Assembly: GCA_963995525.1 (NCBI GenBank)
Contig: OZ023206.1
Coordinates: 67,293,823-67,357,822, forward strand
DNA from: Escarpia spicata
Taxonomy: Eukaryota > Annelida > Polychaeta > Sabellida > Siboglinidae
Reading direction: 5' to 3'
DNA length: 64,000 nucleotides
Below are positions 1 to 28,079 of the stretch, piece by piece. Positions within the stretch are counted from its first letter, which is position 1; every line of letters begins with the position of its first letter. The translations under genes were made by a program, and so were the position numbers. The notes under the pieces were generated by a model, which made no database searches, was not told the DNA's origin, and was given only the letters and a program-made list of their open reading frames with translations.

Positions 1-1
1 G

Positions 2-181
2 ACGGTGGCTGAGAACGGCAAGATGTCAGCCATTGTGAGTGTTCTTTTCCACGAGGTGGCACCCCAGCTTGTGGGGCGCTCTAGTGCCGGGGAGGAGGGC
101 GTCTCAGAGCATGGCTCAACCCCCGGCTCTTCTCCTCGCAAACATGGGGATGGACGCGACACACTGAGGGAGAGACGCGTC
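2..181 (+). CDS. SH3 protein, exon 1 in window (5' end outside)
   Basis: The frame is open from the window edge to the GTAAGT donor at 182-187. It encodes a polar linker rich in Gly, Ser, Glu and Arg, ending in RERRV, and has no recognisable fold. An internal Met exists, but the downstream splice phase and family architecture suggest this is an internal exon. Confidence 0.55.
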
Positions 182-3100
182 GTAAGTAACAACATGCACA
201 TACAGTGACACATATACACACACAAATGCACACACAAGAACACATACATGCATGCAAACACATACTCGCATGCACACATGCATGCAAACACGCACACGCA
301 CACGCACACACACTCATGTACACTCACACACATACATGCATGCACGCACGCATATAGTGACACACATGCGTGTGCACGCACACTCACATAGTGACACACA
401 CACAAACACATACATACAGTGACACACATACACAGTGACATATTCATGCATGCACATAGACGCACGCATACACACACACACACACATGCATAATATTTAT
501 ACAGTCATGTATATATACATATACGGAATATGAAGCAGACTGTCTTAGTCAGTGTCATATGATGCAGTCTGCATTAACCCTTTCTGTGCCCACAGTTCAT
601 GGCTGTGTATGACTACACGCCGTGCAAGCTGTCTACTCTGACACGGCCACGTCAGGAGCTGAGTTTTCGTACAGGAGATATCATCATAACCTATGGACCT
701 CCGGGCACAGATGGGTTCTACTACGGAAAGGTACGCACTGTCTCGTCCCCTCCCTCCCTCCCTCCCTCCCTCCCTCCCTCCCTCCTTCACAGTAAAACTA
801 TTGATTCTTGAATTAACAGCAGTGGTGCCGATTTCCTCAGAGGAAACAGTTTGTATTTGTTTCTCATACTTTTGGCAGCTGTCGTGTCAATATGAGTACG
901 ACACAATGAGTGAGTCACTGTGAGTGAATCACAATGAGTGAGTTTCTAATCACAACAAATGAGTCAAAATAGTTGGAAAGATTACAAAAAGCTTCCTGAG
1001 AGGTAACTCCCAAAACCATGTGAAGTATCACATTCCAAGAAACCAGACCGTCTGTCGAATCATGGAATAGTAGTGTTGTTATTGTACCTGAATGATTATA
1101 AAGAGGGTAGTTGATGTGATACATCCCCTATGTAATCACCCCTACATCTTCCTTCATCCCTTGTGTTTTCTTTCATCCCCATCTTCTTCCATCCTCTACT
1201 TCCACTACATCTTCCTTCTTCTCCTACTTCATCTCTTGTGTCTTCATTCATCCCCATGTCATCATCACCTACATCTTCCTTCATCCCCTGTGTTTTCTTT
1301 CATCCCCATCTTCTTTCATCCTCTACTTCCTCTACATCTTCCTTCTTCTCCTACTTCATCTCTTGTGTCTTCATTCATCCCCATGTCTTCATCCCCTGTG
1401 CCTTCCTTCATCCCAATGTCTTCCCTGCAGGTTCACGGCAAGAAGGGATACATCCCTGCCAGCTTCATTGAGGAGGTTGCTCTGCTGAAGTCAAAGAGTC
1501 GAAGGGTAGGTGTTTCACTTGTACTTTGATACACCAAACCAACAGAGGGTAGGTGTTTCACTTGTACTTTGATACACCAAGCCAACAGAGGATAGGTGTT
1601 TCACTTGTACTTTGATACACCAAGCCAACAGAGGGTAGGTGTTTCACTTGTGCTTTGATACACCAAGCCAACAGAGGGTAGGTGTTTCACTTGTACTTTG
1701 ATACACCAAGCCAACAGAGGGTAGGTGTTTCACTTGTACTTTGATACACCAAGCCAACAGAGGGTAGGTGTTTCACTTGTACTTTGATACAACAAGCCAA
1801 CAGAGGGTAGGTGTTTCACTTGTACTTTGATACACCAAGCCAACAGAGGGTAGGTGTTTCACTTGTACTTTGATACACCAAGCCAACAGAGGGTAGGTGT
1901 CTCACTTGTACTTTGATACACCAAGCCAACAGAGGGTAGGTGTCTCACTTGTACTTTGATACACCAAACCAACAGAGGGTAGGTGTCTCACTTGTACTTT
2001 GATACACCAAACCAACAGAGGGTAGGTGTCTCACTTGTACTTTGATACACCAAACCAACAGAGGGTAGGTGTCTCACTTGTACTTTGATACACCAAACCA
2101 ACAGAGGGTAGGTGTCTCACTTGCACTTTGATACACCAAACCAACAGAGGGTAGGTGTCTCACTTGCACTTTGATACACCAAGCCAACAGAGGGTAGGTG
2201 TCTCACTTGCACTTTGATACACCAAGCCAACAGAGGGTAGGTGTCTCACTTGTACTTTGATACACCAAACCAACAGAGGGTAGGTGTCTCACTTGTACTT
2301 TGATGCACCAAACCAACAGAGGGTAGGTGTCTCACTTGTACTTTGATGCACCAAACCAACAGAGGGTAGGTGTCTCACTTGTACTTTGATACACCAAACC
2401 AACAGAGGGTAGGTGTCTCACTTGCACTTTGATACACCAAACCAACAGAGGGTAGGTGTCTCACTTGCACTTTGATACACCAAACCAACAGAGGGTAGGT
2501 GTCTCACTTGCACTTTGATACACCAAACCAACAGAGGGTAGGTGTCTCACTTGTACTTTGATACACCAAACCAACAGAGGGTAGGTGTCTCACTTGTACT
2601 TTGATACACCAAACCAACAGAGGGTAGGTGTCTCACTTGTACTTTGATACACCAAACCAACAGAGGGTAGGTGTCTCACTTGTACTTTGATACACCAAAC
2701 CAACAGAGGGTAGGTGTCTCACTTGTACTTTGATACACCAAACCAACAGAGGGTAGGTGTCTCACTTGTACTTTGATACACCAAACCAACAGAGGGTAGG
2801 TGTCTCACTTGTACTTTGATACACCAAACCAACAGAGGGTAGGTGTCTCACTTGTACTTTGATACACCAAACCAACAGAGGGTAGGTGTCTCACTTGTAT
2901 TTTGATACACCAAGCCAACAGAGGGTAGGTGTCTCACTTGTACTTTGATACACCAAACCAACAGAGGGTAGGTGTCTCACTTGTACTTTGATACACCAAA
3001 CCAACAGAGGGTAGGTGTCTCACTTGTACTTTGATACACCAAACCAACAGAGGGTAGGTGTCTCACTTGTACTTTGATACACCAAACCAACAGAGGGTAG

Positions 3101-5669
3101 GTGTCTCACTTGTACTTTGATACACCAAACCAACAGAGGGTAGGTGTCTCACTTGTACTTTGATACACCAAACCAACAGAGGGTAGGTGTCTCACTTGTA
3201 CTTTGATACACCAAACCAACAGAGGGTAGGTGTCTCACTTGTACTTTGATACACCAAACCAACAGAGGGTAGGTGTCTCACTTGTACTTTGATACACCAA
3301 ACCAACAGAGGGTAGGTGTTGACTGTTGTAACTCCCTCCAAAACACCATTGATATCTTAAAATTAATTTAGCTAAATTCCAGTGTGTACAGAATTGCTCA
3401 GCTTGTATTGTCACTATTACATCTCACCAGTATGTGTCAGTTACTCTCACGCAATTCAGATAGTCTACCTCACAATTACTTGTATTTCAAGAAATCAATC
3501 CTTCCTCTAGTGTTATTGTTGTCTATAACAGGACAAATGCTTTAATGATTTATTTATGTGTTTTATGCTGCTATAAGAGGAGTGTGCGATGGTAGGTGAG
3601 AGGTGAGAGGTCGGAGTGGCGGTAAGCCACTGGCTAATTAGGTTGTGTTTAGTGTTATGTTGCTTATATTTTTGGTAGATGTGTTCTTTGGGGTCATTAA
3701 AAAATTACGAAACTTCAACGGCAGTTTCACATCCTCACACCATGTATCTTGGCGTATTGCTGAACATAACACACACACACACACATGCACGCACGCATGC
3801 ACGCACACACACCACCTCTGCAGTTATGTAACACTCAACAAGGACCTGACATGATGAAGCCACTGGTCCAGTGTCACTGTTAGGCTGAGAACAGAAAGTG
3901 TCCACTGTGTGAATGAACCTGTGCTACTGTCACCTGTGCACAGAGTAGAATAAACCTGTGCTACTGTCACCTGTGCACAGAGTAGCATGAACCTGTGCTA
4001 CTGTCACCTGTGCATAGAGTAGCATGAACCTGTGCATAGAGTAGCATGCCATAACAAGTTACAAGTTAGCATTCAGTTTTTATTTCAGCATTTCATAAAT
4101 ACTTTGCACACCGATATTGAGAAATTTCTTACTAATTTATGTACCAATAAAAATAGTGCTTTGAGCTTGTGAAGTGAAACTCATACCTCAGAAGGGTTAC
4201 AACCCGTTTTCTAGTTAGTGCTCGGTAATGTTTAGGCATTTGTTAATAGCCCCTGTGCAAATGCACAGTGTCATCACTGGTCACAGAAACAAAGTGCAAT
4301 TGCAGTTTCAGAAGTGAATTGTGGACATTGCATGCATCACTGTAGCAGGTGATTGTGATGTAATGCACCTAGTAGCAGGCGGCTGTGACTTAATGCACCT
4401 AGTAGCAGGCGGCTGTGACTTAATGCACCTAGTAGCAGGCGGTGTGACTTAATGCATCTAGTAGCAGGCACCTGTGACTTATTGCACCTAGTAGCAGGCG
4501 GTGTGACTTAATGCATCTAGTAGCAGGCACCTGTGACTTATTGCACCTAGTAGCAGGCTCCTTTGATTTAATGCACCTAGTAGCAGGCGGTGTGACTTAA
4601 TACACCTAGTAGCAGGCGGCTGTGACTTAATGCACCTAGTAGCAGGCGGCTGTGACTTAATGCACCTAGTAGCAGGCGGTGTGACTTAATGCATCTAGTA
4701 GCAGGCACCTGTGACTTATTGCACCTAGTAGCAGGCTCCTGTGACTTAATGCACCTAGTAGCAGGCTCCTTTGATTTAATGCACCTAGTAGCAGGCGTCT
4801 GTGACTTAATGCACCTAGTAGCAGGCTCCTGTGACTTAATGCACCTAGTAGCAGACGTCTGTGACTTAATGCACCTAGTAGCAGGCGTCTGTGACTTAAT
4901 GCACCTAGTAGCAGGCTCCTGTGACTTAAGGCACCTAGTACCAGACGTCTGTGACTTAATGCACCTAGTAACAGGCTCCTGTGACTTAATGCACCTAGTA
5001 GCAGACGTCTGTGACTTAATGCACCTAGTAGCAGACGTCTGAGACTTATTGCACCTAGTAGCAGGCGTCTGTGACTTAATGCACCTAGTAGCAGACACCT
5101 GTAACTTAAGGCACCTAGTAGCAGACGTTTGTGACTTAATGCACCTAGTAGCAGGCGTCTGTGACTTAATGCACCTAGTAGCAGACGTCTGTGACTTAAT
5201 GCACCTAGTAGCAGGCTCCTGTGACTTAATGCACCTAGTAGCAGGCGTCTGTGACTTAATACACCTAGTAGCAGGCTCCTGTGACTTAATGCACCTAGTA
5301 GCAGACGTCTGTGATTTAATGCACCTAGTAGCAGGCGTCTGTGACTTAATGCACCTAGTAGCAGGCGTCTGTGACTTAATGCACCTAGTAGCAGGTTCCT
5401 GTGACTTAATGCACCTAGTAGCAGACGTCTGTGACTTAATGCACCTAGTAGCAGGCGTCTGTGACTTAATGCACCTAGTAGCAGGTTCCTGTGACTTAAT
5501 GTATCTAGTAGCACGCGTCTGTGACATGGGCTACATCTCATAATGGGTGGATTTGTTTCTCCAGAGCGTGTCGACCAACAGTCTTGCGTCCCAACATTCT
5601 GCATCATCTGTTGCCTCGGCAACCAAGAGGTCGCGACCTTTGAACCTTGGTATCTCAACCGATGTGTAA
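2..5669 (+). CDS. C-terminal exons of an SH3-domain protein, RIM-binding protein-like (partial, 4 exons)
   Basis: Four plus-strand exons join in one frame: 2-181 (open at the window edge), 596-730, 1431-1505 and 5565-5669 (stop TAA 5667-5669). Every junction is phase 0, with GT donors at 182 (GTAAGT), 731 (GTACGC) and 1506 (GTAGGT) and AG acceptors ending at 595, 1430 and 5564. The first exon encodes a low-complexity Ser/Gly/Glu/Arg linker. Exons 2 and 3 together form an SH3 domain: VYDYTP (ALYDY equivalent), ELSFRTGDII (diverging-turn Glu and Gly-Asp), then GFYYGK and GYIPASFIEEV, where a conserved Trp is replaced as in RIMBP SH3 domains. The last exon adds a Ser-rich 34-residue tail. In the RIMBP family such SH3 domains bind proline motifs of RIM and voltage-gated calcium channels at presynaptic active zones. 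Here that role is inferred from similarity only; another SH3 scaffold protein is possible. Confidence 0.72.
190..500. repeat. CA/CACG-rich microsatellite in intron
   Basis: An imperfect run of CACA, CACG and CATG dinucleotide blocks starts right after the exon 1 donor at 182. Confidence 0.85.
596..730 (+). CDS. SH3 protein, exon 2 (N-terminal two thirds of the SH3 domain)
   Basis: The acceptor is TTTCTGTGCCCACAG ending at 595 and the donor is GTACGC at 731. The exon is exactly 45 codons, phase 0/0. It encodes FMAVYDYTP, the RT loop, ELSFRTGDII and GFYYGK, a clear SH3 signature. Confidence 0.82.
747..785 (+). repeat. (CCCT)n microsatellite
   Basis: Roughly nine CCCT units begin about 16 nt downstream of the exon 2 donor. 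Confidence 0.9.
1131..1430 (+). repeat. Pyrimidine-rich tandem repeat ending at the exon 3 acceptor
   Basis: Two diverged copies of a unit of about 125 bp built from CTTCATCCC and TCTTCCTTC motifs, then a partial copy that runs into the acceptor TTCCCTGCAG. The repeat supplies the polypyrimidine tract. Confidence 0.8.
1431..1505 (+). CDS. SH3 protein, exon 3 (C-terminal third of the SH3 domain)
   Basis: The acceptor ends in TTCCCTGCAG at 1430 after a long pyrimidine-rich repeat. The donor is GTAGGT at 1506. The exon has 25 codons and encodes VHGKKGYIPASFIEEV (the SH3 ALYDY-to-PSNYV closing strand region) and a basic tail. The donor is the first unit of a 43-bp minisatellite. Confidence 0.82.
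1506..3318 (+). repeat. 43-bp minisatellite, about 42 copies, starting at the exon 3 splice donor
   Basis: The unit begins GGGTAGGTGTCTCACTTG and ends CCAACAGA. Copy 1 starts at the authentic donor (AGG|GTAGGT), and each later copy repeats GAGGGTAGGT, so each carries a donor-like motif. Early copies have GTGTTTCAC and later ones GTGTCTCAC, and variants are regionally clustered, consistent with local homogenisation. Confidence 0.95.
3319..4339 (+). other. Intron remainder between two minisatellites
   Basis: No gene signal. It holds a CA/GCACG microsatellite (about 3768-3812) and four copies of a repeat of about 44 bp with CTGTGCTACTGTCACCTG (3893-4050). Confidence 0.6.
4340..5520 (+). repeat. 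30-bp minisatellite, about 39 copies
   Basis: The unit is CTTAATGCACCTAGTAGCAG plus GCGTCTGTGA or the variant GCTCCTGTGA. It ends about 45 bp before the terminal exon acceptor. Because 30 is a multiple of three, long decapeptide-repeat reading frames open on both strands; they lie inside an intron and are not considered genes. Confidence 0.93.
5565..5669 (+). CDS. SH3 protein, terminal coding exon
   Basis: The acceptor is TTTGTTTCTCCAG ending at 5564. The exon has 34 codons, Ser/Ala-rich and ending NLGISTDV, then TAA. The phase matches exon 3. The frame and strong polypyrimidine tract support it, but the tail is not family-diagnostic. Confidence 0.65.
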   Translation, partial: SVSTNSLASQHSASSVASATKRSRPLNLGISTDV

Positions 5670-7804: not shown

Positions 7805-7864
7805 ACTTTTGTATGTGTTATTTATATGCTTAAGTTTGTTGTTCTCATTTGAATATAACAAAAC

Positions 7865-9340: not shown

Positions 9341-9861
9341 ATTGCAGACCAAACTAACTCTTGTAAAATAGAAGATATACAGGTTTACAGCATTCTATAA
9401 TCACATCTATATAGAATTGCATAAATCCTTGGAAACTGAAGCTTTTCGGTGTATCAAAGCAAACGCTCAAAATCAGGATACAATAGCAGATATTTTATGT
9501 ACGATCATAACAATTGAAATATTGCACAACTGACACAAATTCAATAACACATGCGACACATTGCAACAGGTCAAACCTTAAGGTACATTTTGGTGGTATG
9601 GAGTTAAAAGTATAATGCAAAAGACCAGCATTTCAATGTTACAATGGTACCAGAGTCATCTGTGTGAGTGAGTTTTTTTACAGAATGGGTGGCTGAACTG
9701 GACCACCGGAAGAACATTTTTTTTTAGATGAACAACCGATATCGAAGTTAGGTCTATGTTTCAAGTACATGCCATTCCATCATAAAACGCACATCAAATT
9801 GATAAAAAACATTTTTCAGTTAATAATTCCAAATTGAATTATTCAAATTGGTAGTAAATTG

Positions 9862-9867
9862 TTTATT
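9862..9867 (-). terminator. Candidate OAT poly(A) signal
   Basis: AATAAA on the minus strand, about 610 nt past the OAT stop. It is the first canonical hexamer I noticed in that direction. Support is positional only. Confidence 0.3.
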
Positions 9868-10184: not shown

Positions 10185-10475
10185 TGCACAACTTTAATGA
10201 CAGTGACACTACAGCTGTGAGTGTCAGTGATATCACGGCTGTCAATGTTAGTGACACTACAGCTGTCAATGTCAGTGACACTATAGCCATCAATGTCAGT
10301 GACACTGCAGCGACCAATGTCTGCGACACCACAGCTGTCAATGACACTATAGCAGTCAATGCCAGCGACACCACAGCTGTCAATGTCAGTGACACTACAA
10401 CTGTCAATGGCAATAACACTACTTATATCAATGACATTACAGCTGTCAATCCCAGTGACACTACTTATGTCAGCT
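10185..10475 (-). repeat. 24-bp tandem repeat abutting the OAT stop codon
   Basis: About 12 units of GTCAATGTCAGTGACACTAC plus AGCT (plus-strand phase), starting two bases beyond the OAT TAA and so in its 3' UTR. Confidence 0.85.
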
Positions 10476-10476
10476 G

Positions 10477-10640
10477 TTAGGCCAGCTCCTCAAGGGACTT
10501 GCGGATGATGTCTATGCACTGCCAGAGCTGTTCCTCTGTGATCACAAGGGGTGGTGCGAAGCGGATCTTATCTCCGTGAGTTGGCTTTGCCAGGAGTCCG
10601 TTGTCACGCATACGAAGACAAACTTCCCACGCATCCAATG
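10477..10640 (-). CDS. OAT: OAT coding exon 8 (C-terminus)
   Basis: It encodes [34 protein letters not shown] and the C-terminal helix ending LEELA, then TAA at 10479-10477. The acceptor is TTTGTTTTTCAG ending at 10641. The sequence matches the OAT C-terminus to the last few residues. Confidence 0.95.
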
Positions 10641-13600
10641 CTGAAAAACAAACAAACTCCTTACAGCACTTCAACATGTCAATAATAAGGACACCAGCAT
10701 TATTACCTTCAAATATGTATCACTCGTGGTCAATCGTGTGCCATGCTTTGTGCTGCCAACCGCTGATCATTTGTCAGTATTGTTACTTTATAGTGACACT
10801 GAGATATAATGACATTGGGCACAATTACTGCTGCTTTTTGCAAGATTAAATATACAACTTACACCGAACATACACCAACAGATTCAACACTGTATTGTTT
10901 TTGATCAAATGCTGCCTAATCGCAGTTTGCAATAATAAACATTATATGTGCTGTCTGCCACAATTGATTCTCCCCTTTCCAAATCGAACAAATATCGTGA
11001 GATATAATTAACTGCGCTATCATGACATATTCGATGGGTAAAGGTCAGTTCTGATACAGCGAAATATCCAGTCCTTGGCAAACCTGCTCATTTGAACATC
11101 ATCTGGATTTAGATGGGAGCCATTCAGCCATGTAGAAATTACAAATAGTTCACAAACATCCCTCTCTGTCTACGGCCAGGTATCGTTTATATAACCATGT
11201 AAACCACAGCAACGTGGAGTAAACAAAGTCCTTGAACAAGTTTCAAAATGACATCAAAAGGATTCAACAACTGATTCTCTCGGTTGAGAATGCGTTGTGT
11301 CTCCCCACCATGCTACCAACCTCACTTCTTTTCTTTTGAGTGAAATTATAATTACCGATCGATTTCATTTGAAGATAAAAACCTTAGTATACTGGTTGGG
11401 GCACTAACACTGCATCCTATTGTTTTGGTAATTTTAACAAAAACCTGATCAAACTGTTTCGTAATATACCTATATGCTAAATCTCTGACACACATTCCAT
11501 AAAATTTCTGCCAACAAACTGTTTGAAAAGTTGCTTTGAGTGAACTAATGAAAATAGACTGAGTGAAATCCATATCTTGTATAAGATGCCTGCGTAAAAA
11601 ATCGTGCATACGTAATCTGTACTGTAGAAATCGCTCTAAGGCCAGAACGTGCAAGGTCAGGCAGGGTATTAAAATATCAATATGTTTTCAGTGACTCTAT
11701 TTTTGACCTGGCATGAACTTTCCAGTCGCGAGTATGCTGTTTGCCAAACGTGAAGTCGACTCTAGCTAGTACCCTATCGTAAGGCAGTCTGTACTCATAC
11801 AGCAGTATGTAACAACTACTTTTTTAGAAATTCTAAAGTTTATAGCAGCAATTTAATATCTCTATAAATGCTGAAAGTGTCAAAATGTTGATAAAATAAG
11901 CACTGAGTTGTGACTGACGTGGCTTGATGACAATGGCGTTGAAGAGGCCCATGCCACGGACCAGTGTCACGAGATCCTTCGAGATCTTGTTGAGTTCCTC
12001 TCGCAGGATCACGCCCAGACGCTCCGAGTTCTCTGCCAGACGCTCCTCCTCACACACCTACAGACCACACAGATCACACACCTGCAGATCACACAGATCA
12101 CACACCTGCAGATCACACAGATCACACACCTATAGATCAAACAGATCACACACCTGCAGATCACACACAGCTATAGATCACACATATCACATACCTACAG
12201 ATCACAAAGACCAAACACCTACAGATCACACACCTGCAGACAACACACCTATAGATTATTACTATAGGTGTGTTGCTAGCATTTCCATAGCGCCTTTCCG
12301 CGTACACACATTATAAATCGTACATGGAAAATATAAAAATATATATGTCCCTCAGTCGAAGTACGCCTGCTTAAATAGATACGATTTACGGCAAGTTTTG
12401 AATTTATTCAAAGCCTCTATTTGACGAACGTTTATTGGCAGAGCGTTCCAGAGCGTAGGTCCAGACACGGAGAAAGCTTGTCTGCCGTAGCCCTCTAAGT
12501 TGTAGCGCGGGACTACAAGCAGATCGGAGGTTGCGGGTGGGCGTATACGGTATTATGAGATCTTGGATATACGCTGGAGCAAGACCATGTAAAGCCGTGG
12601 AAACAAGGACCAGCAGTTTGTACTGGATACGCCAGCGATCTGGAAGCCAATGCAGTTCGACCAGCACAGGTGTTATGTGCTGGTGCTTTCGGTGTCTTGA
12701 AATAAGTCTTGCTGCCGAGTTATGTACCATCTGCAATTTGTTCATAAGTGTCTCGGTGATGCCGTACTCATATCGAGCAGCACTGCCAGCACACCGTTCC
12801 TTTTGTCAAGGGAATGGAGATGGTCATTCTGAATGCGCACCAGTGCTGTCTCAGTGCTGTGATGTTGTCTGTACGCACTTTGGAAAATGTCCATCAAATT
12901 GTTGTCGTCTAGATGCTGGCGAAGTTGGACTGCTACGTGACGCTCCAGTAACTTTGAAACAAATGACAAGTTCGATATAGGCCGGTAGTTGTTCATCGAG
13001 TCTGAATCAAGGTTTGGTTTCTTTAATAGAGGTGTGATCACAGCATGTTTGAAGTTGGCCGGCACGGACCCCGACTCGAGCAACATGTTGATGATTGTAG
13101 CTAATGTCGGCGCAAGAATGTCAATGTTGGTTTTCACGAGTGAGGTAGGAAGTGGATCGAGCGTGCTTGATTTTGTTGGACACTGCCTCACCAAAGAGAG
13201 AACACCGTCTGTGGTGATGCCATAAAACGCATTGACTGTGCAAGACTGTTCACAATGCACGTACTCAGCGTTGACAGTTTGCAGGCGTCTACTCGCTAAC
13301 TGGCTGGGAATGTTTAACACGGCGTGTGAAGTCATCTGCCAGTTGTGCTATACCAGACACAGGACTGGGCAGTTTTGGAGTAGTTTTTCTCTTCATCAAG
13401 TCATCCATGATCCTGAACAGTGCTTTGTTGTTACGTGCACATTCATCAATTTTCGTTGTGTAGAATTTGGCTTTCACAGACTGTATTTGCTATTTGTAAG
13501 TTTCACACTGTGCAGTGTAGATGTCTCTGTGAATCTGCAGCTTTGTCAGTCTCCATTTCCGCTCTGCTTGTCGGAGCTTTCGCTTAGCAAGTGATAATTC

Positions 13601-16600: not shown

Positions 16601-19600
16601 AGATCGTCAACATCACGTCATCATCTGCCAGCACTGCTGACACCTGCCACACCACTCCAGGTGATTACACCACTCCAACACACTGACCCCACTCCAGATG
16701 ATTACACCACTCCAACCACTTCTACATACACCACTCCAACACATTCACACCACTCCAACACTCAAACCACTTCAACACACTCATACCACTTCAACACTCA
16801 CACCACTGCAACACACCCATACCACTCACTCCAACCACTGCAACACACCCATACCACTCACTCCAACCCACTCACACCAACCATTGCAACACACCCATAC
16901 CACTCACTCCAACCCATTCACACCAACCACTGCAACACACCCATACCACTCACTCCAACCCACTCACACCAACCACTGCAACACACCCATACCACTCACT
17001 CCATACCACTCACTCCAACCACTGCAACTCACCCATACCACTCACTCCAACCCACTCACACCAACCACTGCAACACACCCATACCACTGCAACACACCCA
17101 TACCACTCACTCCAACCCACTCACACCAACCACTGCAACACACCCATACCACTCACTCCAACCCACTCACACCAACCACTGCAACACACCCATACCACTC
17201 ACACCAACCACTGCAACACACCCATACCACTCACTCCAACCCACTCACACCAACCACTGCAACACACCCATACCACTCACTCCAACCCACTCACACTAAC
17301 CACTGCAACACACCCATACCACTCACTCCAACCCACTCACACCAACCACTGCAACACACCCATACCACTCACTCCAACCCACTCACACCAACCCACTCAC
17401 ACCAACCACTGCAACACACCCATACCACTCACACCAACCACTGCAACACACCCATACCACTCACTCCAACCCACTCACACCAACCACTGCAACACACCCA
17501 TACCACTCACTCCAACCCACTCACACCAACCACTGCAACACACCCATACCACTCACACCAACCACTGCAACACACCCATACCACTCACACCAACCACTGC
17601 AACACACCCATACTACTCACTCCAACCCACTCACACCAACCACTGCAACACACCATACCACTCACTCCAACCCACTCACACCAACCACTGCAACACACCC
17701 ATACCACTCACTCCAACCCACTGCAACACACCCATACCACTCACTCCAACCCACTCACAACAACCACTGCAACACACCCATACCACTCACTCCAACCCAC
17801 TCACACCAACCACTGCTACACACCCATACCACTCACTCCAAACCACTCACACCAACCACTGCAACACACCCATACCACTCACTCCAACCCACTCACATCA
17901 ACCACTGTAACACACCCATACCACTGCAACACACCCATACCACTCACACCAACCACTGCAACACACCCATACCACTCACTCCAAACCACTCACACCAACC
18001 ACTGCAACACACCCATACCACTCACTCCAACCCACTCACACCAACCACTGCAACACACCCATATCACTCACTCCAACCCACTCACATCAACCACTGCAAC
18101 ACACCATTGCAACACACTCGCACCACTTGAACATACTGACACCATTGCAATATACACACATAACTCACTCCAAACCACTCACCACTGCAACACACCACTG
18201 CAACACACACCACTCCAACACACATCACTCCAACACATACACATCACTCCAACACACCCACACCACTCCAACACACTCACACCACTGCAACACACTCACA
18301 CAACTCCAGCATGCAGCACTAACACACTCACACCACATTATTAATGTATGAAACATTATTCATTATAAAGCAGGAACATAACCTTCGTGTGAACCAACAG
18401 ACACACCAATGTTACACCAACATACCTTTAAATGTGACACCAACATACCCCAAATGTTACGCCACCATTCCAGTTTACGTAAATTCAAAATAAGTGATCA
18501 AATCCAAAATTTCATAAGAAAGTTGTTTATGCCCAAACTGCCTTGATCCTGGTGTTAACGTTGGCTGGACTCACCGGATAAAGTCCACCGGACAGCGCCT
18601 TACCCAGCAACACCATGTCTGGCCTGACTCCCTCATGGTCAACACACAACCGTCTACAACAGACACACCGGTAGTAGCGACATTGACAGAGACACGTTGA
18701 TAGAGACACGTTGATAGACACACATTGACAGAGACACAATGATAGATACACAGTGACAGAGACACACTGACAGGGACACACTGACAGATCCACACTGATA
18801 GAGACACACTGACAGATACACACTGACAGGGACACACTGATAGAGACACACTGATAGAGACACACTGAAATGGACACACTGACAGAGACACACTGACACA
18901 GACACACTGACAGAGACACACTGACACGGACACACTGACAGATACACACTGACAGGGACACACTGATAGAGACACTGATAGAGACACTGACAGAGACACA
19001 CTGACAGAGACACACTGACACAGACACACTGACACAGACACACTGACAGAGACACACTGACAGAGACACATTGATAGAGACACAATGATAGAGACACATT
19101 GATAGAGACACATTTACAGAGACACACTGACAGAGACACACTGACAGAGACACAATGATAGAGACACATTGATAGAGACACACTGACAGAGACACACTGA
19201 TAGTTACACATTGATAGAGACACGTTGATAGAGACACACTAACAGAGACACCTTGATAGAGACACACTGACAGAGACACACTGATAGAGACACATTGATA
19301 GAGACACACTGACAGAGACACATTGATAGAGACACACTGACAGAGACACATTGATAGAGACGTATTGACAGAGACACATTGATAGAGACACACTGACAGA
19401 GACACACTGACAGAGACACACTGTCAGAGACACACTGACAGAGACACATTGATAGAGACACACTGATAGAGACACACTGACAGAGACACATTGATAGAGA
19501 CATATTGACAGAGACACATTGATAGAGACATATTGATGGAGACATACCGATAGAGACACATTGACAGAGCCACATTGATAGACACATTGACAGAGCCACA

Positions 19601-22600
19601 CCGATAGATGTAGACACACTGACAAAGACACACTGATAGAGACACATTGATAGGGACATAATGATAGCTGTAGACACACTGACAAAGACACAATGATAGC
19701 TGTAGACACATTGATTGAGACACATTGACAGAGACACATTGATAGCTGTAGACACACTGACAGAGACACATTGCTAGAGACACACGCATTAACCTATTTG
19801 TGTTGTGTTGCCATAGTAGCAATGACCTACATATGTTGTTACTATGGTAGCAGTGACCTATTCGTGCTATGTTGCCATGGTAACAGTGACCTGCTGGTGT
19901 TGTGTTGCCATGGTAACAGTGACCTATTTGTGATGTATTCCCATGGTAGTAGTGACCTATTTATGTTGTGTTGCCATGGTAGCAGTGACCTACTTTCCCG
20001 TCCTGCCTAGTCCTGTCTGTACTTCATCAGCAATAAAGAGGACGTTGTTCTTAGTGCAGATGTCTCGGACCCCACGCATGTAGCCATTGTCAGGGACAAC
20101 GACCCCCGCCTCACCCTGCACTGGCTCCACCATGAAGGAACAAACAGTCGGGTCCTGAGTCGCTTTCTGTCAATCACAACCACAACATACAACTAGAATC
20201 TATTCAATCACAACATTCATTAACTTACACTATATCTAAATATTTTAGATTTCATATATTTTACACCTAAAACACTCTACATATTCAACCCTGACAGGAC
20301 GTAATAAGTGAAAAAATTTAATTGTGACTAATAGAATTTTGATTAAAAGCATTTTGCATGAAATAAGTCGTTTCGATGCAACAAAACTAAAAATATCTGC
20401 TGTGAGAGACGTAACACAGCATATTGGTAAACAAGTAACCAAGAAGACAGCGTTATGGTCATTGAAAGGTACATTGACTTTCATCACGAGCATCAAGGTC
20501 ATTGAATGGTAAGATGACTTACATCAAGGGTCTAGAGGTTATCGAAGGGTATATGATTACTTACATCAAGGTCATTGGATGGTATGATGATTTACATCAA
20601 GGGTCTACAGGTTATCGAAGGGTATATGATTACTTACATCAAGGGTTTAGAGGTTATCAAAGGGTATATGATTACTTACATCAAGGGCTGACTTACATCA
20701 AGGGTTTAGAGGTTATCAAAGGGTATATGATTACTTACATCAAGAGCATTAAGGTCATTGAATGGTATGACGACTTATATCAAGGGTCTACAGGTTATCG
20801 AAGGGTATATGATTACTTACATCAAGAGTATCAAGGTCATTGGATGGTATGACGACTTACATCAAGGGTCTACAGGTTACCGAAGGGTATATGATTACTT
20901 ACATCAAGAGTATCAAGGTCATTGAATGGCATGATGACTTACATCAAGGGTCTACAGGTTATCGAAGGGTATATGATTACTTACATCAAGAGTATCAAGG
21001 TCATTGAATGGCATGATGACTTACATCAAGGGTCTACAGGTTATCGAAGGGTATATGATTACTTCAGGGATGAGAGTGACATTCAGAGAAAAAACCGGAA
21101 ATTTTGCTGTGGCCCAATTTCAGCCCGAGAGGACTTTCTCATCTAATGGAGGGGAGGGGGGGACTCCTCAGAGATATTTTGTAATTGTAGACGACATATG
21201 GTGTATTTTGAGCAATATTAAATAGAAAATCTCAACATTTCCAATAGCAAAAAAAGCACACGGACTCACGCACACATTGTCATAGTACTAACTCATTTGT
21301 TAATGATATTTTCTGGGCTGAACCCGAGTTGGCTGACGGGCAGCTGTCTCCTTGGCAAGCTTTGTCAAAACAGCCTGTTGATGGGCCATTCTAGCTTTTT
21401 TCGTTGCCAGCTCAACTGCTTCCTTAGCTTTTTACTTGGTGGCTGCCTTCGTCTATGACATGTTCAGCTCAGTTTTCTTCTACTCCTTCATCTTTCCTTC
21501 CTCGGCAAGATGGATGGAGTACATTTTGTATGCACCCCTCGTGTTGTGAACGAGGCGACCAGTTCTGTTTGTGGAAGTCCTGTATAGCTTGCCATGAGTG
21601 AGTACATCACTGCCTGGATAGTGTCGAATGTACTAACATTCTTTCTGGCAGTGGCAGTATTCATGATGCTAGACATGTGACTAAAACACCCTTCCACTTG
21701 AGGACCATGAAAGCAGCTCATCATTGCAGCCACCAGCTCTGACAAGGATGGGAACTTGCCAGTAGAGAATATGGTAGCCCACCACGAGTCCAATCTGGAA
21801 CTTGTGGAAGTGTGTTGTCTACATGAAATCGGCGAACTTCTATGTGATACGTCCTCTGTTCAGGTTCTAATAGAATATTGGTGACCAGTGTGTGTACTTC
21901 AATGCCTTCGGTTCCCCTCTGACTGGAGCTTGTAGGATCCAATCCGCATAGTTGACATCGGCCTCGCACCACAAACAGTATACTGATGAATATATCCAAC
22001 ATAGTGTTTCGTGTACTACTCTACTCGGTACCCCCCCCCCCCCCTATTCCCGGTGTATCCGTGTTATGTTCATGCAGCCCTTTCTCTGTTTGTACTGAAT
22101 TTACGCCAACTATAGGGTAGGTTGGTATTGGGCAATCAAATTTATTAACACAGGGATTGCCACTGTGCACATATAATATATACAATAGTCACATCTTGTG
22201 CACAGCCAGGTACATCGAGATTACAGAGTGATGGACCACACATGTTATGTACGACACATTTTGTACATTTAGAATAATCATACTAGACATTTACCAAAAA
22301 ACCCTTGATTGCTGTTATATTAATTACAGCATACCGACTGTAATATGCTTACAGTATATAGAACACAAGGGAAAAAGATACCTGGTGTGCAGACTGCACA
22401 CCTTTCTATAGTACTAGCCCATTGAATGGTATGATGACTTACATCAAGGGTCTACAGGTTATCGAAGGGTATATGATTATTTACATCAAGGGCATCGAGA
22501 TCATTAAAGGATATGATTTCATTTAAATCATCATATCCTGAAGGGTATGACTTAAGTCAGTCATTGAAGGGTACAATGATTTACATCAAGGGTGTCTAGG

Positions 22601-25600
22601 TCATCAAAGGGCACAATGACTTACATCAATGGATTATAACTCATCAAAGGTTACGATGACTTACATTAAGGTCATTCAAGAACATGACTTACATCAAGGT
22701 CACTGAAGTGTATGACTTACATCAAGGTCACTGAAGGGTATGACTTACATCAAGGGCATCAAGGTCACTGAAGGGTATGACTCACATTAAGGTAATTGAC
22801 GGTATGACTTACATCAACAGCGTCGAGGTCATTGAAGGGTATGACTTACGTCAAGGTAATTGTAGGGTATTATGACTTACATCAAAGGCGACAAGGTCAT
22901 CAAAGGGCACAGTGACATACATCAATGGTCTAGAGGTCACTGAAGGGCACGATGACTTACATTAAGGTCATTCAAGGACATGACTTACATCAAGGTCACT
23001 GAAGTGTATGACTTACATCAAGGTCACTGAAGGGTATGACTTACATCAAGGGCATCAAGGTCACTGAAGGGTATGACTCACATTAAGGTAATTGACGGTA
23101 TGACTTACATCAACAGCGTCGAGGTCATTGAAGGGTATGACTTATGTCAAGGTAATTGTAGGGTATTATGACTTACATCAAAGGCGACAAGGTCATCAAA
23201 GGGCACAGTGACATACATCAATGGTCTAGAGGTCACTGAAGGGCACGATGACTTACATTAAGGTCATTCAAGGACATGACTTACATCAAGGTCACTGAAG
23301 TGTATGACTTACATCAAGGTCACTGAAGGGTATGACTTACATCAAGGGCATCAAGGTCACTGAAGGGTATGACTCACATTAAGGTAATTGACGGTATGAC
23401 TTACATCAACAGCGTCGAGGTCATTGAAGGGTATGACTTACGTCAAGGTAATTGTAGGATATTATGACTTACATCAAAGGCGACAAGGTCATCAAAGGGC
23501 ACAGTGACATACATCAATGGTCTAGAGGTCACTGAAGGGCACGATGACTTACATCAAGGGCGTCGAGGTCATTGAAGGGTATGATGACGTAGCCAGGGAC
23601 GTAGGGTGCATAGTCGTTGTAGGCGATGGGGTCAGTGGAGGCGGACACAGCCGCGATGGTTCGCCCCCAGAAGTTGTTCTCACAGAAGACGTGCTTTGCC
23701 TGACCCTGGGGCACGCCTTTTACCTTGTACCCCCACTTACGAGCCAGCTTCAAGGACGACTCTCCAGTCTCAACACCTGATGACATGTCACATAACTGGT
23801 CACATGATACACGTGGAAATTTGTAGGTGTCGAATTTTGCTCAGAAATCATTGTAATGCTATATTTCAGGGGCTAAGAACGTTCTTAACGCTAAAATGAT
23901 TGATAAGCAAAGGCAGGAGTTTATGCAAACATGTGATACTAAGTAATTGCATAACTTTAAGCATGCTTCATGAATCTGGCCCCAGCTCACTACTTTATTT
24001 CTGTCATTTATATACAAGAAGCTTAGTAAAATGGCAATTACTTCTAAAGTACTCGCAATATAGTGCCCAAACTTCAGATTTGTCCATGAAGATGACTGTG
24101 GAATGTCTGGTAAAAATGTCAAGTGACCATGAGAACAAAGCTTGTGGGGCTTGGCCGAGTTGATAAGGGTTTGGTTGGTTGAGTTGATATTTAGCTCTAA
24201 TCTTATGACTATACCTTTATCATGACACAGAAAAAAACCAAATTGCATGGTTGCAACTTCAGTACAGCCTTTTGAAATGTCAGACCCTATGATCCCCATT
24301 CCACCAGGGTCAACTAGGTGAAATAAAAAACTAAACATCTGTGAACTAGCAATCAAAACCTCAGCTACATACATGTGAAACCAACAAAGATGTTAAGACA
24401 GACAATTAAACATGCATACTTTTTATAATAGATATTAAATATATATTTCATAAGGTAGATGGGAATAATTGTTTTATAATGTATTACAGTACACAAATTA
24501 AGAGCACCTCAAATCATTCAGTTTTCATAAAAAAAACACTAATTTTCTTTTTAAAATAATGTCTACTTCTGTATATCTTCAGTAACAGAGTGCAAGCTTA
24601 ATAGCATCAATCGAATGACCACATACTCATATTTATGAGCAGTACATTGTCACTGACTCACCACTCGCACGTATTCATGGGCAGGACTTTATCACAGACT
24701 CACCAGTATTCATGGGCAGTACTTTATCACCAACTCACCCATATTCATGGGCAGTACTTCGTCACTGTCTCACCACTCACCCGTATTCATGGGCAGGACT
24801 TTGTCGTAGCCAAACAGTTTGGTGATGTACTCTTCGTACTCGCCAAGGACATCGCTGTAGAAGGCGCGTGAGGTCAAGGTCAATCTCTCGGCCTGTTGCT
24901 GCAAGACCCGCACAAGACGCGGGTGACAGTGGCCTTGGTTGACCGCACTGTAGGCACTGAGGAAGTCAAAGTAGCGCTTTCCCTCCATGTCCCACACAAA
25001 TACACCTGAAACATGCACAACTCTGCACTTACTTGCCTGAAACACAGGCAACTCTAGCACTTACACGCCTGAAACACAGGCAACTCTAGCACATAACACA
25101 CATGCCTGAAACACACCCAACCGTAGCACATAACATACATGCCTGAAACACACGCAACTCTAACATTTACAATAAGTTACACACTTGTAACACAGGCAAC
25201 TCTAGCACTTGCACATACACGCCTGAAACACACCCAACTGTAGCACATAACATACATGCCTGAAACACATGCAACTCTAACATTTACAATAAGTTACACA
25301 CTTGTAACACAGGCAACTCTAGCACTTGCACATACACGCCTGAAACACACCCAACTGTAGCACATAACACACATGCCTGAAACACACCCAACCGTAGCAC
25401 ATAACATACATGCCTGAAACACACGCAACTCTAACATTTACAATAAGTTACACACTTGTAACACAGGCAACTCTAGCACTTGCACATACACGCCTGAAAC
25501 ACACCCAACTGTAGCACATAACATACATGCCTGACACACACACAACTCTAACATTTACAATAAGTTACACACTTGTAACACAGGCAACTCTAGCACTTGC

Positions 25601-28075
25601 ACATACACGCCTGAAACACACCCAACTGTAGCACATAACATACATGCCTGACACACACGCAACTCTAACATTTACAATAAGTTACACACTTGTAACACAG
25701 GCAACTCTAGCACTTGCACATACACGCCTGAAACACACCCAACTGTAGCACATAACATACATGCCTGAAACACACGCAACTCTAACATTTACAATAAGTT
25801 ACACACTTGTAACACAGGCAACTCTAGCACTTGCACATACACGCCTGAAACACACCCAACTGTAGCACATAACATACATGCCTGAAACACACGCAACTCT
25901 AACATTTACAATAAGTTACACACTTGTAACACAGGCAACTCTAGCACTTGCACATACACGCCTGAAACACACCCAACTGTAGCACATAACATACATGCCT
26001 GAAACACACGCAACTTTAACATTTACAATAAGTTACACACTTGTAACACAGGCAACTCTAGCACTTGCACATACACGCCTGAAACACACCCAACTGTAGC
26101 ACATAACATACATGCCTGAAACACACGCAACTCTAACATTTACAATAAGTTACACACTTGTAACACAGGCAACTCTAGCACTTGCACATACACGCCTGAA
26201 ACACACCCAACTGTAGCACATAACATACATGCCTGAAACACACACAACTTTAACATTTACAATAAGTTACACACTTGTAACACAGGCAACTCTAGCACTT
26301 GCACATACACGCCTGAAACACACCCAACTGTAGCACATAACATACATGCCTGAAACACACGCAACTCTAACATTTACAATAAGTTACACACTTGTAACAC
26401 AGGCAACTCTAGCACTTGCACATACACGCCTGAAACACACCCAACTGTAGCACATAACATACATGCCTGAAACACACGCAACTTTAACATTTACAATAAG
26501 TTACACACTTGTAACACAGGCAACTCTAGCACTAACATGCCTGAAACATAGGAACTCTAACACCTACAATAAGTTACACACTTGAAACACAGGCAACTAT
26601 AGCACTAACACGCCTGAAACATAGGAACTCTAACACTTACACATTTAAAACACGGGCAACTCTAGCACTGACACATTTGAAATATAGGAAACTCTACACT
26701 TACCATAAATTTCCGTGTATAATACGCATTTTTTCCTTCACTTTTTACTCAAAAGTCAAGGTGTGTATTATACATGGTGCTAAGGCTAAAAAAAAATTAT
26801 CTGACAATTTATTAATATTTGCAGACCAGGAAAATGCTGCTGGAAACTAGTAATATTATCAAAGTTGACGTTATGTCACAATCACGTAAACCACCGCAGC
26901 AACGCAAACGAAAGGCAAGAATCGTACTCCCGTAACCGCCTCTCTAGCCCTAAACTAGCAGCGAGAAATTACAAAGACGAGAGTCCGTATGTCTGACATC
27001 GCGAATAACACCAATGAGCGAGATGCGTACGAGATTGGGAAGCGCAGCCCGGGAAGAACACGTGTTTCTCCCTAGGCGCCAAGGTATTATGATTGGCTTT
27101 CCCGAATCATGTGAATGATGCCCGCGTCACGGGTCGAGTGTCAACAAATGTGACTCTATGTTTAAAGTTGTAAATACAAGTGTTGTGAATGTAAATAAAA
27201 ACGAATGTAGCGTATGTTTGCTTCAAAGTTGAAAGTACCAGGTTTGCATGTAGCATTTTAGAATAGAACTTGGTGTTAATTTAAAAGTGAAATCAGAACG
27301 ACATAATGTAAGTTCTAGCAAGCGCTGATTTAATCAGTTGTGCAATTGTCATTCTACAACACAAGTTGCGTAGCGAGCGACAAGCCGGCAGCAATGCCGT
27401 AACTTGTGGTGAGGTGACATGTTTACGATTCTGAGATGGATTCATCGGTTCAACCAAAATGTTAGAAGCAGAGAAATCCGGGATTGATGTCAAAAGTCGG
27501 GTGCGTATTATACATGGTGTTATAGAAATTCTATCAAAATTTAACAAAAGTCATGGTGCGTATTATACATGGGGGCGTATTATACATGGAAATTTACGGT
27601 ACATGCCTGAAACACACCACACTCCAGCACTTATATGCCTGAAACACACAACACTCCAGCACTTATATGCCTGAAACACACAACACTCCAGCACATATAT
27701 GCCTGAAACACACAACACTCCAGCACTTATATGCCTGAAACACACAACACTCCAGCACTTATATGCCTGAAACACACAACACTCCAGCACTTATATGCCT
27801 GAAACACACAACACTCCAACACTTATATGCCTGAAACCCAGGAAACTCACCTGAAAGTGAGAACCACTGGGGCATACTTATGCCTGTTACACGACAACAC
27901 TTCACTTACCCTCTGCCCTAGTGAGAGCTACTGGGACTGGGGCGTAGTTATGCGCCCCAAATTTGTCTTCCCGGTTGAATACTTTCTGTGATGCAGAGCT
28001 GTTCTGACGCGAGAAGACATGTGTCACACGACGCGTCACTTGACGTAATTGGTGAATAGAGTGTCGTGACAACAT
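10477..28075 (-). CDS. OAT: Ornithine aminotransferase, mitochondrial (8 coding exons, complete)
   Basis: This class-III PLP aminotransferase transfers the delta-amino group of ornithine to 2-oxoglutarate, giving glutamate semialdehyde and glutamate in the mitochondrial matrix. Coding exons on the complement are 28075-27910, 25005-24781, 23776-23553, 20166-19994, 18653-18575, 16643-16530, 12057-11919 and 10640-10477. They sum to 1284 nt (427 aa; human OAT is 439). All junctions are GT-AG with matching phases. The N-terminus ([10 protein letters not shown], Arg-rich, no acidic residue before residue 36) looks like a mitochondrial presequence. Key residues sit at a constant offset of 11 from human OAT: Y44 and Y74 (substrate pocket), R169, E224, D252 (pyridine nitrogen) and K281 in GKALSGG (Schiff base). 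No frameshift or in-frame stop is seen, so the gene looks functional. Introns are crowded with tandem repeats and transposons. The gene converges on the SH3 gene. Confidence 0.95.
10641..11918 (-). other. OAT intron 7, no recognised content
   Basis: The only OAT intron without a tandem array. A 100-codon minus-strand frame at 11654-11352 matches nothing I know. Confidence 0.5.
11919..12057 (-). CDS. OAT: OAT coding exon 7
   Basis: It encodes [15 protein letters not shown] through [16 protein letters not shown]. The acceptor is GGTCTGTAG ending at 12058. The donor is a non-optimal GTCAGT from 11918, phase 1. The exon end is set by phase agreement with exon 8. Confidence 0.88.
12058..12262 (-). 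repeat. Repeat of about 17-27 bp abutting the OAT exon 7 acceptor
   Basis: In the OAT sense direction the units read GTGTGATCTGCAGGTGTGTG. The real junction reads GTGTGGTCTGTAG|GTGTGTGAGG, so each unit copies the acceptor and the first exon bases. The same family resumes at 15838-16240, beyond the LINE. Confidence 0.85.
12262..15830 (-). mobile_element. L2/CR1-like LINE, degenerate, inside OAT intron 6
   Basis: Endonuclease pieces: [12 protein letters not shown] and ITLTETWL (about 15.3-15.2 kb), then [12 protein letters not shown] and [10 protein letters not shown] (14.0-13.85 kb). A linker region at 13.68-13.29 kb is followed by the reverse-transcriptase N-part at 13335-12742 ([24 protein letters not shown]). 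The RT breaks off after motif A and is joined directly to the C-terminal [12 protein letters not shown] region at 12745, so motifs B and C (including the catalytic ADD) are deleted. A 13-copy 70-bp expansion splits the endonuclease. The 3' tail has GGAAAGGCGCTATGGAAATG, typical of L2-like tails. Boundaries are approximate. Confidence 0.85.
14141..15050 (-). repeat. 70-bp minisatellite, 13 copies, within the LINE endonuclease
   Basis: Units start at exact 70-bp spacing from 14141 to 15051. The unit encodes [20 protein letters not shown] in the endonuclease frame, and unique endonuclease sequence flanks both ends. Because 70 is not a multiple of three, the reading frame rotates; all three frames are mostly open. 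An AACACT/AACTCT variant alternates along much of the array. Confidence 0.95.
15838..16260 (-). repeat. Second half of the exon 7 acceptor-derived array
   Basis: Diverged GATCACACACCTACA units. The first 57 bp nearly match 12173-12230 on the other side of the LINE. Confidence 0.8.
16530..16643 (-). CDS. OAT: OAT coding exon 6
   Basis: It encodes [14 protein letters not shown], then [19 protein letters not shown], the strongly conserved [10 protein letters not shown] block of OAT that contacts the cofactor phosphate across the dimer. Thirty-eight codons, phase 0/0. The acceptor is GTGTGGCAG ending at 16644 and the donor is GTGAGG from 16529. Confidence 0.95.
16644..18345 (-). repeat. 46-bp and 28-bp minisatellite starting at the OAT exon 6 acceptor
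   Basis: The main plus-strand unit runs CCACTGCAACACACCCATAC to CACTCACTCCAACC to CACTCACACCAA, with shorter variants lacking one block. In OAT sense each unit contains GTGTGTTGCAG|TGG, a YAG acceptor-like motif. The array runs up to the real acceptor GTGTGGCAG. Confidence 0.93.
18575..18653 (-). CDS. OAT: OAT coding exon 5 (catalytic lysine)
   Basis: This 79-nt exon encodes [26 protein letters not shown] split over two motifs; K281 of GKALSGG forms the internal aldimine with PLP. The acceptor is TCTGTTGTAG ending at 18654 and the donor is GTGAGT from 18574. Confidence 0.95.
18660..19790 (-). repeat. Short-unit (13-14 bp) minisatellite upstream of the OAT exon 5 acceptor
   Basis: GACAGAGACACACT and GATAGAGACACATT units alternate. 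In the sense direction they give TGTGTCTCTGTCAG, resembling the exon 5 acceptor tract TGTGTCTGTTGTAG. About 80 units. Confidence 0.92.
19795..19993 (-). repeat. Repeat of about 36 bp starting at the OAT exon 4 donor
   Basis: Five or six units of AGGTCACTGTTACCATGGCA. The real junction is GGGAAA|GTAGGTCACTG; most copies read AAATAGGTCAC, lacking the donor G. Confidence 0.88.
19994..20166 (-). CDS. OAT: OAT coding exon 4 (PLP-binding Glu/Asp)
   Basis: It encodes [24 protein letters not shown] (E224) and [15 protein letters not shown] (D252). The acceptor is TTGACAG ending at 20167. The donor GTAGGT begins at 19993 in phase 2; the split Lys codon is completed by exon 5. Confidence 0.95.
20485..21063 (-). 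repeat. Exon 3-donor-derived minisatellite, distal block
   Basis: Units of 30-41 bp carry TTGATGTAAGTAATCATA (sense), the same family as 22425-23590. A 1.35 kb insertion (21064-22424) separates the two blocks. Confidence 0.9.
21064..22424 (-). mobile_element. Insertion holding a transposase-like relic and a dispersed 330-bp element
   Basis: It interrupts the exon 3-derived array. A minus-strand frame at 21793-21488 reads [40 protein letters not shown] and [17 protein letters not shown]. This resembles the C-terminal dimerisation-like region of hAT-type transposases, from memory and without alignment. Stops end the frame, so it is a relic. The right end (22092-22421) is a 330-bp sequence repeated inverted at 52492-52822. 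Element class is uncertain. Confidence 0.5.
22425..23590 (-). repeat. Exon 3-donor-derived minisatellite with 296-bp higher-order repeat
   Basis: The basic unit is about 27-40 bp and contains CTTGATGTAAGTCATACC (sense). Some units also copy CCTTCAATGACCTCGACG from the last coding bases of OAT exon 3. The landmark GATGACTTACAT(T/C)AAGG recurs at 22655, 22951, 23247 and 23543, exactly 296 bp apart; the last is at the exon's own donor. Confidence 0.95.
23553..23776 (-). CDS. OAT: OAT coding exon 3
   Basis: It encodes [23 protein letters not shown] (R169) and the segment ending [10 protein letters not shown]. The donor is GTAAGT from 23552, phase 0. The last 30 coding bases and this donor recur many times in the adjacent intronic array. 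Confidence 0.95.
23777..24609 (-). other. OAT intron 2 interior
   Basis: Non-repetitive AT-rich intron sequence. No gene or element recognised. Confidence 0.5.
24610..24781 (-). repeat. Repeat of 35-42 bp copying the 3' end of OAT exon 2 and its donor
   Basis: In the sense direction the real junction AAAGTCCTGCCCATGAATAC-GG|GTGAGT is followed by three close copies and a more diverged fourth (e.g. AAGTACTGCCCATGAATATG-G|GTGAGT). Twenty-two coding nucleotides (KVLPMNTG) are thus duplicated inside the intron. Confidence 0.92.
24781..25005 (-). CDS. OAT: OAT coding exon 2
   Basis: It encodes [28 protein letters not shown] through KVLPMNTG, closely matching OAT in sequence and length; Y74 is the specificity tyrosine of OAT. 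The acceptor is TGTTTCAG ending at 25006 and the donor is GTGAGT from 24780, phase 1. Tandem arrays flank both ends. Confidence 0.95.
25006..26703 (-). repeat. OAT exon 2 acceptor-derived minisatellite with 117-bp higher-order repeat
   Basis: Basic units of about 30-45 bp contain GTGTGTTTCAGGC (sense), matching the exon 2 acceptor GCATGTTTCAG|GTG. From about 25.15 to 26.52 kb a 117-bp three-unit block repeats about 11 times (e.g. starts at 25491, 25608, 25725). Confidence 0.94.
26704..27599. mobile_element. Non-autonomous TA-flanked DNA transposon (Tc1/mariner-pogo type)
   Basis: The left end CCATAAATTTCCGTGTATAA is the near-perfect inverse of the right end TTATACATGGAAATTTACGG, with TA on each outer side. 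Subterminal copies of GCGTATTATACATGG occur at about 26760, 27502 and 27557. No transposase frame. It splits the exon 2 acceptor array, whose units resume at 27600. Confidence 0.85.
27600..27840 (-). repeat. Continuation of the exon 2 acceptor-type array
   Basis: About seven units of 33 bp: ATGCCTGAAACACACAACAC then TCCAGCACTTAT. Same family as 25006-26703. Confidence 0.9.
27910..28075 (-). CDS. OAT: OAT coding exon 1 (transit peptide, substrate-binding Tyr)
   Basis: I chose the ATG at 28075-28073 because it starts an Arg/Ser-rich presequence and gives the length expected for OAT. A CAG acceptor ends at 28078, three bases from the ATG, so a separate 5' UTR exon is likely upstream. The exon ends with KFGAHNY (Y44) and [10 protein letters not shown]. 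Donor GTAAGT starts at 27909, phase 1. Confidence 0.88.
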
Positions 28076-28079
28076 CTCT

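Follow-up and report, generated by a model that had tools for sequence, protein, structure and literature searches.

Tandem arrays lying on or beside exon–intron junctions of the ornithine aminotransferase (OAT) gene of the tubeworm Escarpia spicata, and of a RIMBP-like gene at the same locus, are probably minisatellites of the mirage type, in which a junction segment was duplicated and then multiplied intronward as a tolerated by-product and not as a regulatory device. The two genes form a hot spot, with arrays much denser than in a sample of chaperonin (CCT) genes.

Gene models and junction arrays at the OAT locus

The window, the whole stretch of 64,000 nucleotides that was analysed, corresponds to C2:67293823–67357822 of an assembly of 1.06 Gb in 1097 contigs. 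Reading frame, protein homology and GT–AG ends served to predict the splice sites of the OAT, RIMBP and CCT genes. The OAT gene was modelled on the minus strand with eight exons, from 28075 down to 10477, encoding 427 residues in a reading frame of 1284 nt that lacked internal stops, with GT–AG ends in all seven introns. Exons were placed at 27910..28075 (exon 1, from the ATG, with donor GTAAGT), 24781..25005 (exon 2, for which alignment with the Ridgeia protein was also used), 23553..23776 (exon 3), 19994..20166 (exon 4), 18575..18653 (exon 5), 16530..16643 (exon 6), 11919..12057 (exon 7) and 10477..10640 (exon 8, including the stop codon). The closest solved structures to the product were ornithine aminotransferases, and its best match was a protein from the siboglinid annelid Ridgeia piscesae, with 90–91% identity (120 matches listed after scoring of 8000 word-sharing candidates); amphioxus OATs were 68–71% identical among the matches listed. 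Alignment with the Ridgeia protein was continuous, with no insertion or deletion where exons meet. Exons 2, 3, 6 and 7 (starting at 25005, 23776, 16643 and 12057) open with GTGT directly after the AG, so that four of the seven acceptor-bearing exons carry AG/GT composite sites at the acceptors themselves (here and below, the slash marks a splice border).

On the plus strand, exons at 596..730 and 1431..1505 were recognised by domain match as the first and second parts of an SH3 domain. Since a joined exon pair in the 10 kb upstream of the window, on the same strand, matched a Pfam RIMBP2-type domain (E = 5.8e-14), the gene was called RIMBP-like; we infer that the upstream exons and the SH3 exons belong to one gene. 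Neither an Rfam family at the gathering threshold nor a tRNA was detected in the window.

Minisatellites with a period of at least 10 occupied 50% of positions 1–28075, versus 1.4% of positions 28076–64000; a (TGAG)n tract of 117 copies with 100% matches was located at 61872–62340. The original prediction had placed arrays directly on seven OAT junctions. Six of these were confirmed within 5 bp, with distances of 0 bp at the exon 2 acceptor and the exon 3 and exon 4 donors, 5 bp at the exon 2 donor, 4 bp at the exon 6 acceptor and 0 bp at the exon 7 acceptor, while the array at the exon 5 acceptor proved to stop 26 bp short. The remaining seven junctions were 72–188 bp away from the nearest array.

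All OAT arrays are given on the minus strand. At three junctions, the repeat unit spanned the border itself. The exon 2 donor array (24649..24805) consisted of a 35-bp unit that combined, in its best copies, about 25 nt of exon (KVLPMNTG codons) with the GTGAGT region, and included three intronic junction-spanning copies. At the exon 3 donor (22420..23588), a unit of about 40 bp held up to 38 nt of exon followed by GTAAGT, with a higher-order period of 296 bp and 19 intronic junction-spanning copies. The same unit family continued past an inserted mobile repeat sequence (21067..22419, no strand assigned) with 14 more spanning copies (20491..21066), giving 33 copies that were 75.6–95.1% identical. 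The exon 7 acceptor array (12050..12255) had a 24-bp unit, CTGCAG/GTGTGTGA..., with 8 nt of exon; 11 copies were counted for this junction, and the unit family recurred at the opposite end of intron 6 (15842..16249).

At the exon 4 donor and the exon 2, 5 and 6 acceptors, only 0–2 exon nucleotides fell within the arrays, as delimited by Tandem Repeats Finder (TRF). The array adjoining the exon 2 acceptor (25005..26703) had periods of 37 and 117 bp and units holding TTTCAGG, and a related unit family was present at the opposite end of intron 1 (27603..27837). A 33-bp unit with (G)TAGGT and two exon nucleotides made up the exon 4 donor array (19792..19995), which together with a 14-bp-unit array near the exon 5 acceptor (18680..19785) covered 98% of intron 4. 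Intron 5 was 90% covered, most of it by the array that ended 4 bp from the exon 6 acceptor (16648..18308). The expectation that most units would contain the junction was thus too strong, as at least 8 exon nucleotides were found at three of the seven junctions. A putative further case at the exon 1 donor was rejected as too weak, as it comprised a single diverged 18-nt copy scoring 26, when the best of 100 shuffles already reached 24. Beyond the coding sequence, in what is presumably the 3' UTR, a minisatellite at 10196–10472 starts 4 bp past the stop codon of OAT, so that this array too sits at an edge of coding sequence.

In the RIMBP-like gene, SH3 exon 1431–1505 was flanked on both sides, as had been proposed: a pyrimidine-rich array (1122..1423, plus strand) ended 7 bp before its acceptor, and a second array (1503..3319, plus strand) began 3 nt inside its donor end. 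The latter comprised 42 copies, 98% alike, of a 43-bp unit AGG/GTAGGT...CCAACAG, which with 3 exon nucleotides does not span the border in the above sense. The upstream 10-kb stretch was 33% minisatellite and contained the strongest mirage, which lies outside the window. There, the exon at 806–933 of that stretch, ending ...CGCCAG/GTGAGT, was followed by 16 further units spaced 65–71 bp apart, each with CCAG/GTGAGT, so that the last ~61 nt of the exon plus GTGAGT were repeated 16 times with 85–90% identity to the exon. The arrays were head-to-tail, many of their copies carried AG or GT, and the unit families were local to one gene within the sequence compared below.

Origin and direction of the units

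Where a unit holds exon sequence, the conserved coding exon stands out from the letters as the template and the intronic copies as its products. Exon codons reappear in intronic copies with the donor attached, and the copied exon segments are the older sequence because they are coding and alignable between annelids and amphioxus. An in-frame TAG in the first of the exon 3 copies within the intron shows that they are noncoding there. We propose that a segment straddling, or right at, the exon–intron junction would duplicate in tandem, and that slippage or unequal exchange would then multiply the intron-side copies, which would come to fill a portion of the intron or almost its whole length. The outermost copy, joined to the true exon, would keep a working splice site, and spread of the ignored decoys would be tolerated, so that the arrays may be a side effect of the fast turnover of minisatellites in the tubeworm. 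Slippage or unequal exchange, already suggested by the original prediction, fits the head-to-tail copies, the 296-bp higher-order period and the restriction of units to one intron. Against this reading, four of the seven OAT cases have at most two exon nucleotides, and a plain intronic minisatellite could do likewise.

In a comparison of 20 window arrays of more than 100 bp with 242,506 bases (low-complexity filter on), six had matches at another place, in each case inside the same intron, and OAT introns 1, 3 and 6 each contained one private unit family at two places. For the 117-bp part of the intron 1 array, the sole match in 1.06 Gb was its own place, with simple repeats and very common words skipped. 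A dispersed transposon was considered as the unit source and is not supported by these two comparisons. The mobile repeat at 21067–22419 was 89% identical over 890 bp to the upstream 10-kb stretch, 96% over 380 bp to the CCT7 gene region and 77% to window positions 52494–52824. It sits in the gap of the exon 3 array, which therefore probably predates the insertion. In intron 6, the gap between the array parts contained a reverse-transcriptase fragment and a 70-bp array; the fragment (12745–13347, Pfam PF00078) belongs to a probable LINE. Differences in copy identity suggest that the arrays differ in age and that the process may be ongoing.

Junction preference and the fate of decoy sites

The comparison sample consisted of genes of the chaperonin family, which were not chosen for repeats. 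It used 43 of 46 hits in nine gene regions, and its 81 junctions were positioned from the reading frame together with a splice score. The other three hits, C974, C1:65826590 and C9, each a long single frame, were set aside as intronless, and about ten further possible CCT exons found by tblastn were left out of the counts. An uninterrupted chaperonin frame of 549 residues spans 1501–3009 of the stretch taken from C974, a 107-kb contig, and may represent a symbiont GroEL in the assembly. The genes that we take to be CCT7 and CCT3 encode the eta and gamma subunits, respectively, as identified from solved-structure matches.

Among 46 arrays in this sample, three were clear mirages with border-spanning units, at a CCT7 donor, the CCT7 last-exon acceptor and a CCT3 acceptor. 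The CCT7 donor array contained 11 GTAAGT units, including the exon's own, at 78-bp spacing, with the exon part 92–100% identical; the CCT3 acceptor array had 10 intronic copies at 54-bp spacing that were 84–92% identical. As CCT7 is on C2 and CCT3 on C13, mirages extend to genes of two or more further chromosomes or regions. The density of the arrays had originally been described as seemingly extreme, and for OAT this holds against the CCT genes: arrays and the 10 bp around them took up 52% of intronic positions in OAT versus 17% in CCT.

For OAT, six of 14 junctions had a minisatellite no more than 5 bp away, whereas 20,000 within-intron placements gave a mean of 0.85 (P ≤ 5e-5); at 30 bp, seven of 14 junctions compared with a mean of 2.94 (P = 2e-4). 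A plain test of array ends likewise gave 5 versus 0.35 at 10 bp and 6 versus 0.97 at 30 bp for OAT. A unit-aware test was also applied, in which arrays were re-placed at random with exon overlap allowed up to one unit. It found anchored 6 of 13 OAT arrays (1.28 expected, P = 0.0005) and 3 of 12 RIMBP arrays (0.58 expected, P = 0.012); OAT had been picked by eye as striking, a bias carried by its P value, and RIMBP is part of the same locus. For CCT, the result was borderline, with 4 of 46 arrays against 1.73 (P = 0.07–0.09), one of the four, C10, depending on a weak donor call; at a tolerance of 30 bp, 6 of 46 were anchored against 2.3 (P = 0.02). Across six parameter settings, P ranged over 0.001–0.003 for OAT, 0.011–0.097 for RIMBP (0.01–0.02 at 10 bp and 0.06–0.10 at 5 bp) and 0.020–0.092 for CCT.

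Two other counts weigh against the preferred reading. In the nine unselected CCT genes with their 81 junctions, array ends fell within 10 bp of a junction once against 1.17 expected, and within 30 bp four times against 3.19. Arrays holding at least 8 exon nucleotides within TRF limits were not significantly above chance in any group, with 2 versus 0.90 for OAT (P = 0.21, the exon 2 donor being treated as abutting), 1 versus 0.35 for RIMBP (P = 0.31) and 3 versus 1.15 for CCT (P = 0.10). Only 4 of 81 CCT junctions lay in an array or no more than 10 bp from one, versus 13.8 expected from intronic positions, a deficit that is natural because at most one unit per array can touch an exon. Strong local clustering is therefore shown, systematic genome-wide anchoring is not, and the counts hint at, but do not establish, a general preference of arrays for junctions. 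The predicted enrichment of array ends beyond the OAT and SH3 genes was not supported by the plain end test of the 81 CCT junctions.

Chance seeding, whereby duplications start anywhere, exonic ones are purged and junction-crossing ones survive without any preference, is a reading that may well be correct, if somewhat short of an even chance. It would make OAT a lucky cluster and accords with the CCT end counts and with the exon-holding arrays, but has to contend with the anchored arrays of OAT and RIMBP and with the CCT excess at 30 bp. It concerns preference only and is compatible with a junction-derived origin of single arrays. Junction-targeted birth, in which transcription- or splicing-coupled breaks, R-loops or AG/GT microhomology at intron ends favour duplication, would explain the excess at the OAT/RIMBP locus, the weak excess in CCT genes and the involvement of both donors and acceptors; with the excess borderline in unselected genes, we consider it possible but rather doubtful. 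An equally tentative extension is that junctions are preferred birthplaces of minisatellites in the tubeworm lineage through transcription- or splicing-coupled duplication, still active genome-wide, of an origin independent of amphioxus and a main route of intron growth and of spare splice sites.

That the introns themselves arose by tandem duplication of an AGGT-bearing exon segment, leaving the arrays as a birth scar, is improbable. Such an origin was proposed for amphioxus globins in the available text of PMC3087553, novel introns from tandem repeats at exon–intron boundaries are described for human duplicated genes in that of PMC2812944, and the CCT7 units consist of a 39-nt exon copy with CAG before and GTAAGT after it. 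However, exon-bearing copies resemble just one of the two intron borders, which is the pattern that enlargement of a pre-existing intron would give.

The original prediction also envisaged dozens of decoy sites behind the authentic ones. Splice scores were computed with human-type weight matrices. With these, 36 GT in intron 3 scored at least as high as the true donor, and 41 AG and 23 AG in introns 6 and 1, respectively, at least as high as the true acceptor, in keeping with that view, but introns 2, 5 and 6 had no decoy GT as good as the true donor. In arrays with exon content, the true site was the copy adjoining the exon, and the cell presumably uses this outermost copy, for which exon definition is the likely reason. 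Unit lengths of 24, 33, 54, 78 and 117 are divisible by 3, and those of 14, 35, 40, 43, 46, 70 and 296 are not; splicing at a decoy would thus cause a frameshift in roughly every second array. Selection on decoy sites was examined and not supported: splice-signal columns deviated less than other columns in 8 of 8 arrays, yet not beyond circular shifts in any (nine rows, shift fraction 0.125–0.667), and the removal of mismatched unit ends by local alignment favours apparent conservation of splice signals. A function of the repeated sites in regulating splicing, be it by recursive splicing, factor sequestration or delayed processing, could invoke the intact donors of 16/16 RIMBP and 10/10 CCT7 intronic units, the 20 AG/GT composite sites of intron 6 against 0–1 in each of the other six OAT introns, and a C. 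elegans minisatellite linked to alternative splicing (PMC4039745, from the part available), but is very unlikely, as the absence of significant extra conservation of decoy signals in any array gives no sign of function.

Relation to known systems

Occurrence of mirage minisatellites in an annelid, a phylum distant from amphioxus, allows them to be studied as a general process, and such arrays are natural experiments on intron lengthening. The upstream RIMBP array, with 17 CAG/GTGAGT donors in a row of which the first is the exon's own, is likewise a natural experiment on spliceosomal choice where many sites are identical. Junction arrays also endanger gene annotation, as predictors can call copies as exons, which they did for lancelet PGBD5 according to the accessible text of PMC3902484.

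No report of mirage minisatellites in annelids was found among the literature matches listed, which largely excluded subscription journals and were available in part, and the Ridgeia genome paper (PMC9921365), which covers intron sizes and tandem-repeat prediction, did not contain the word "minisatellite" in its available portion. Long tandem repeats in annelid introns are shared with earthworm metallothionein genes. There, per the available sections of PMC12783039, monomers of ~180 bp lie in intron 1 and exon duplications are absent from the transcript in one clone; junction-spanning is not stated in them, in contrast to the spanning units of the tubeworm. Intron gain in the potato RdRp gene (PMC4974935, partial text) resembles the tubeworm case in that tandem duplication supplies extra splice sites, but a single duplication becomes an intron in potato, whereas many copies lie inside introns in the tubeworm. 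Human segmental-duplication genes carry variable internal tandem repeats with units of ~30 bp at exon–intron boundaries, so that minisatellites at junctions occur outside cephalochordates as well and are of a kind already known, as judged from the excerpt of PMC2812944. According to the same excerpt, the human repeats, with ~4 units each, alter splicing and make novel introns from exonic repeats, whereas in the tubeworm the exon border seems to have stayed the same, with long arrays running into the intron next to it.

The closest parallel is amphioxus, in which mirage minisatellites were defined (PMC3087553) and later extended to PGBD5 (PMC3902484), the reported genes in the available text of both papers being Adh3, the globins BflGb6 and BflGb9, PGBD5 and troponin C. 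The likeness noted originally is correct in structure, as far as the available part of PMC3087553 goes: tandem units cross exon–intron borders on the donor or acceptor side, and many retain an intact AG or GT. According to those portions of PMC3087553 and PMC3902484, the flanking gene is apparently spliced normally in amphioxus, as is also predicted for the tubeworm. Unlike the amphioxus cases, the tubeworm OAT is nearest to an annelid protein and 6 of 13 arrays of a single gene are anchored; moreover, up to 33 spanning copies occur in one of its introns, versus 3–6 units in the BflGb6 gene as described in the available text.
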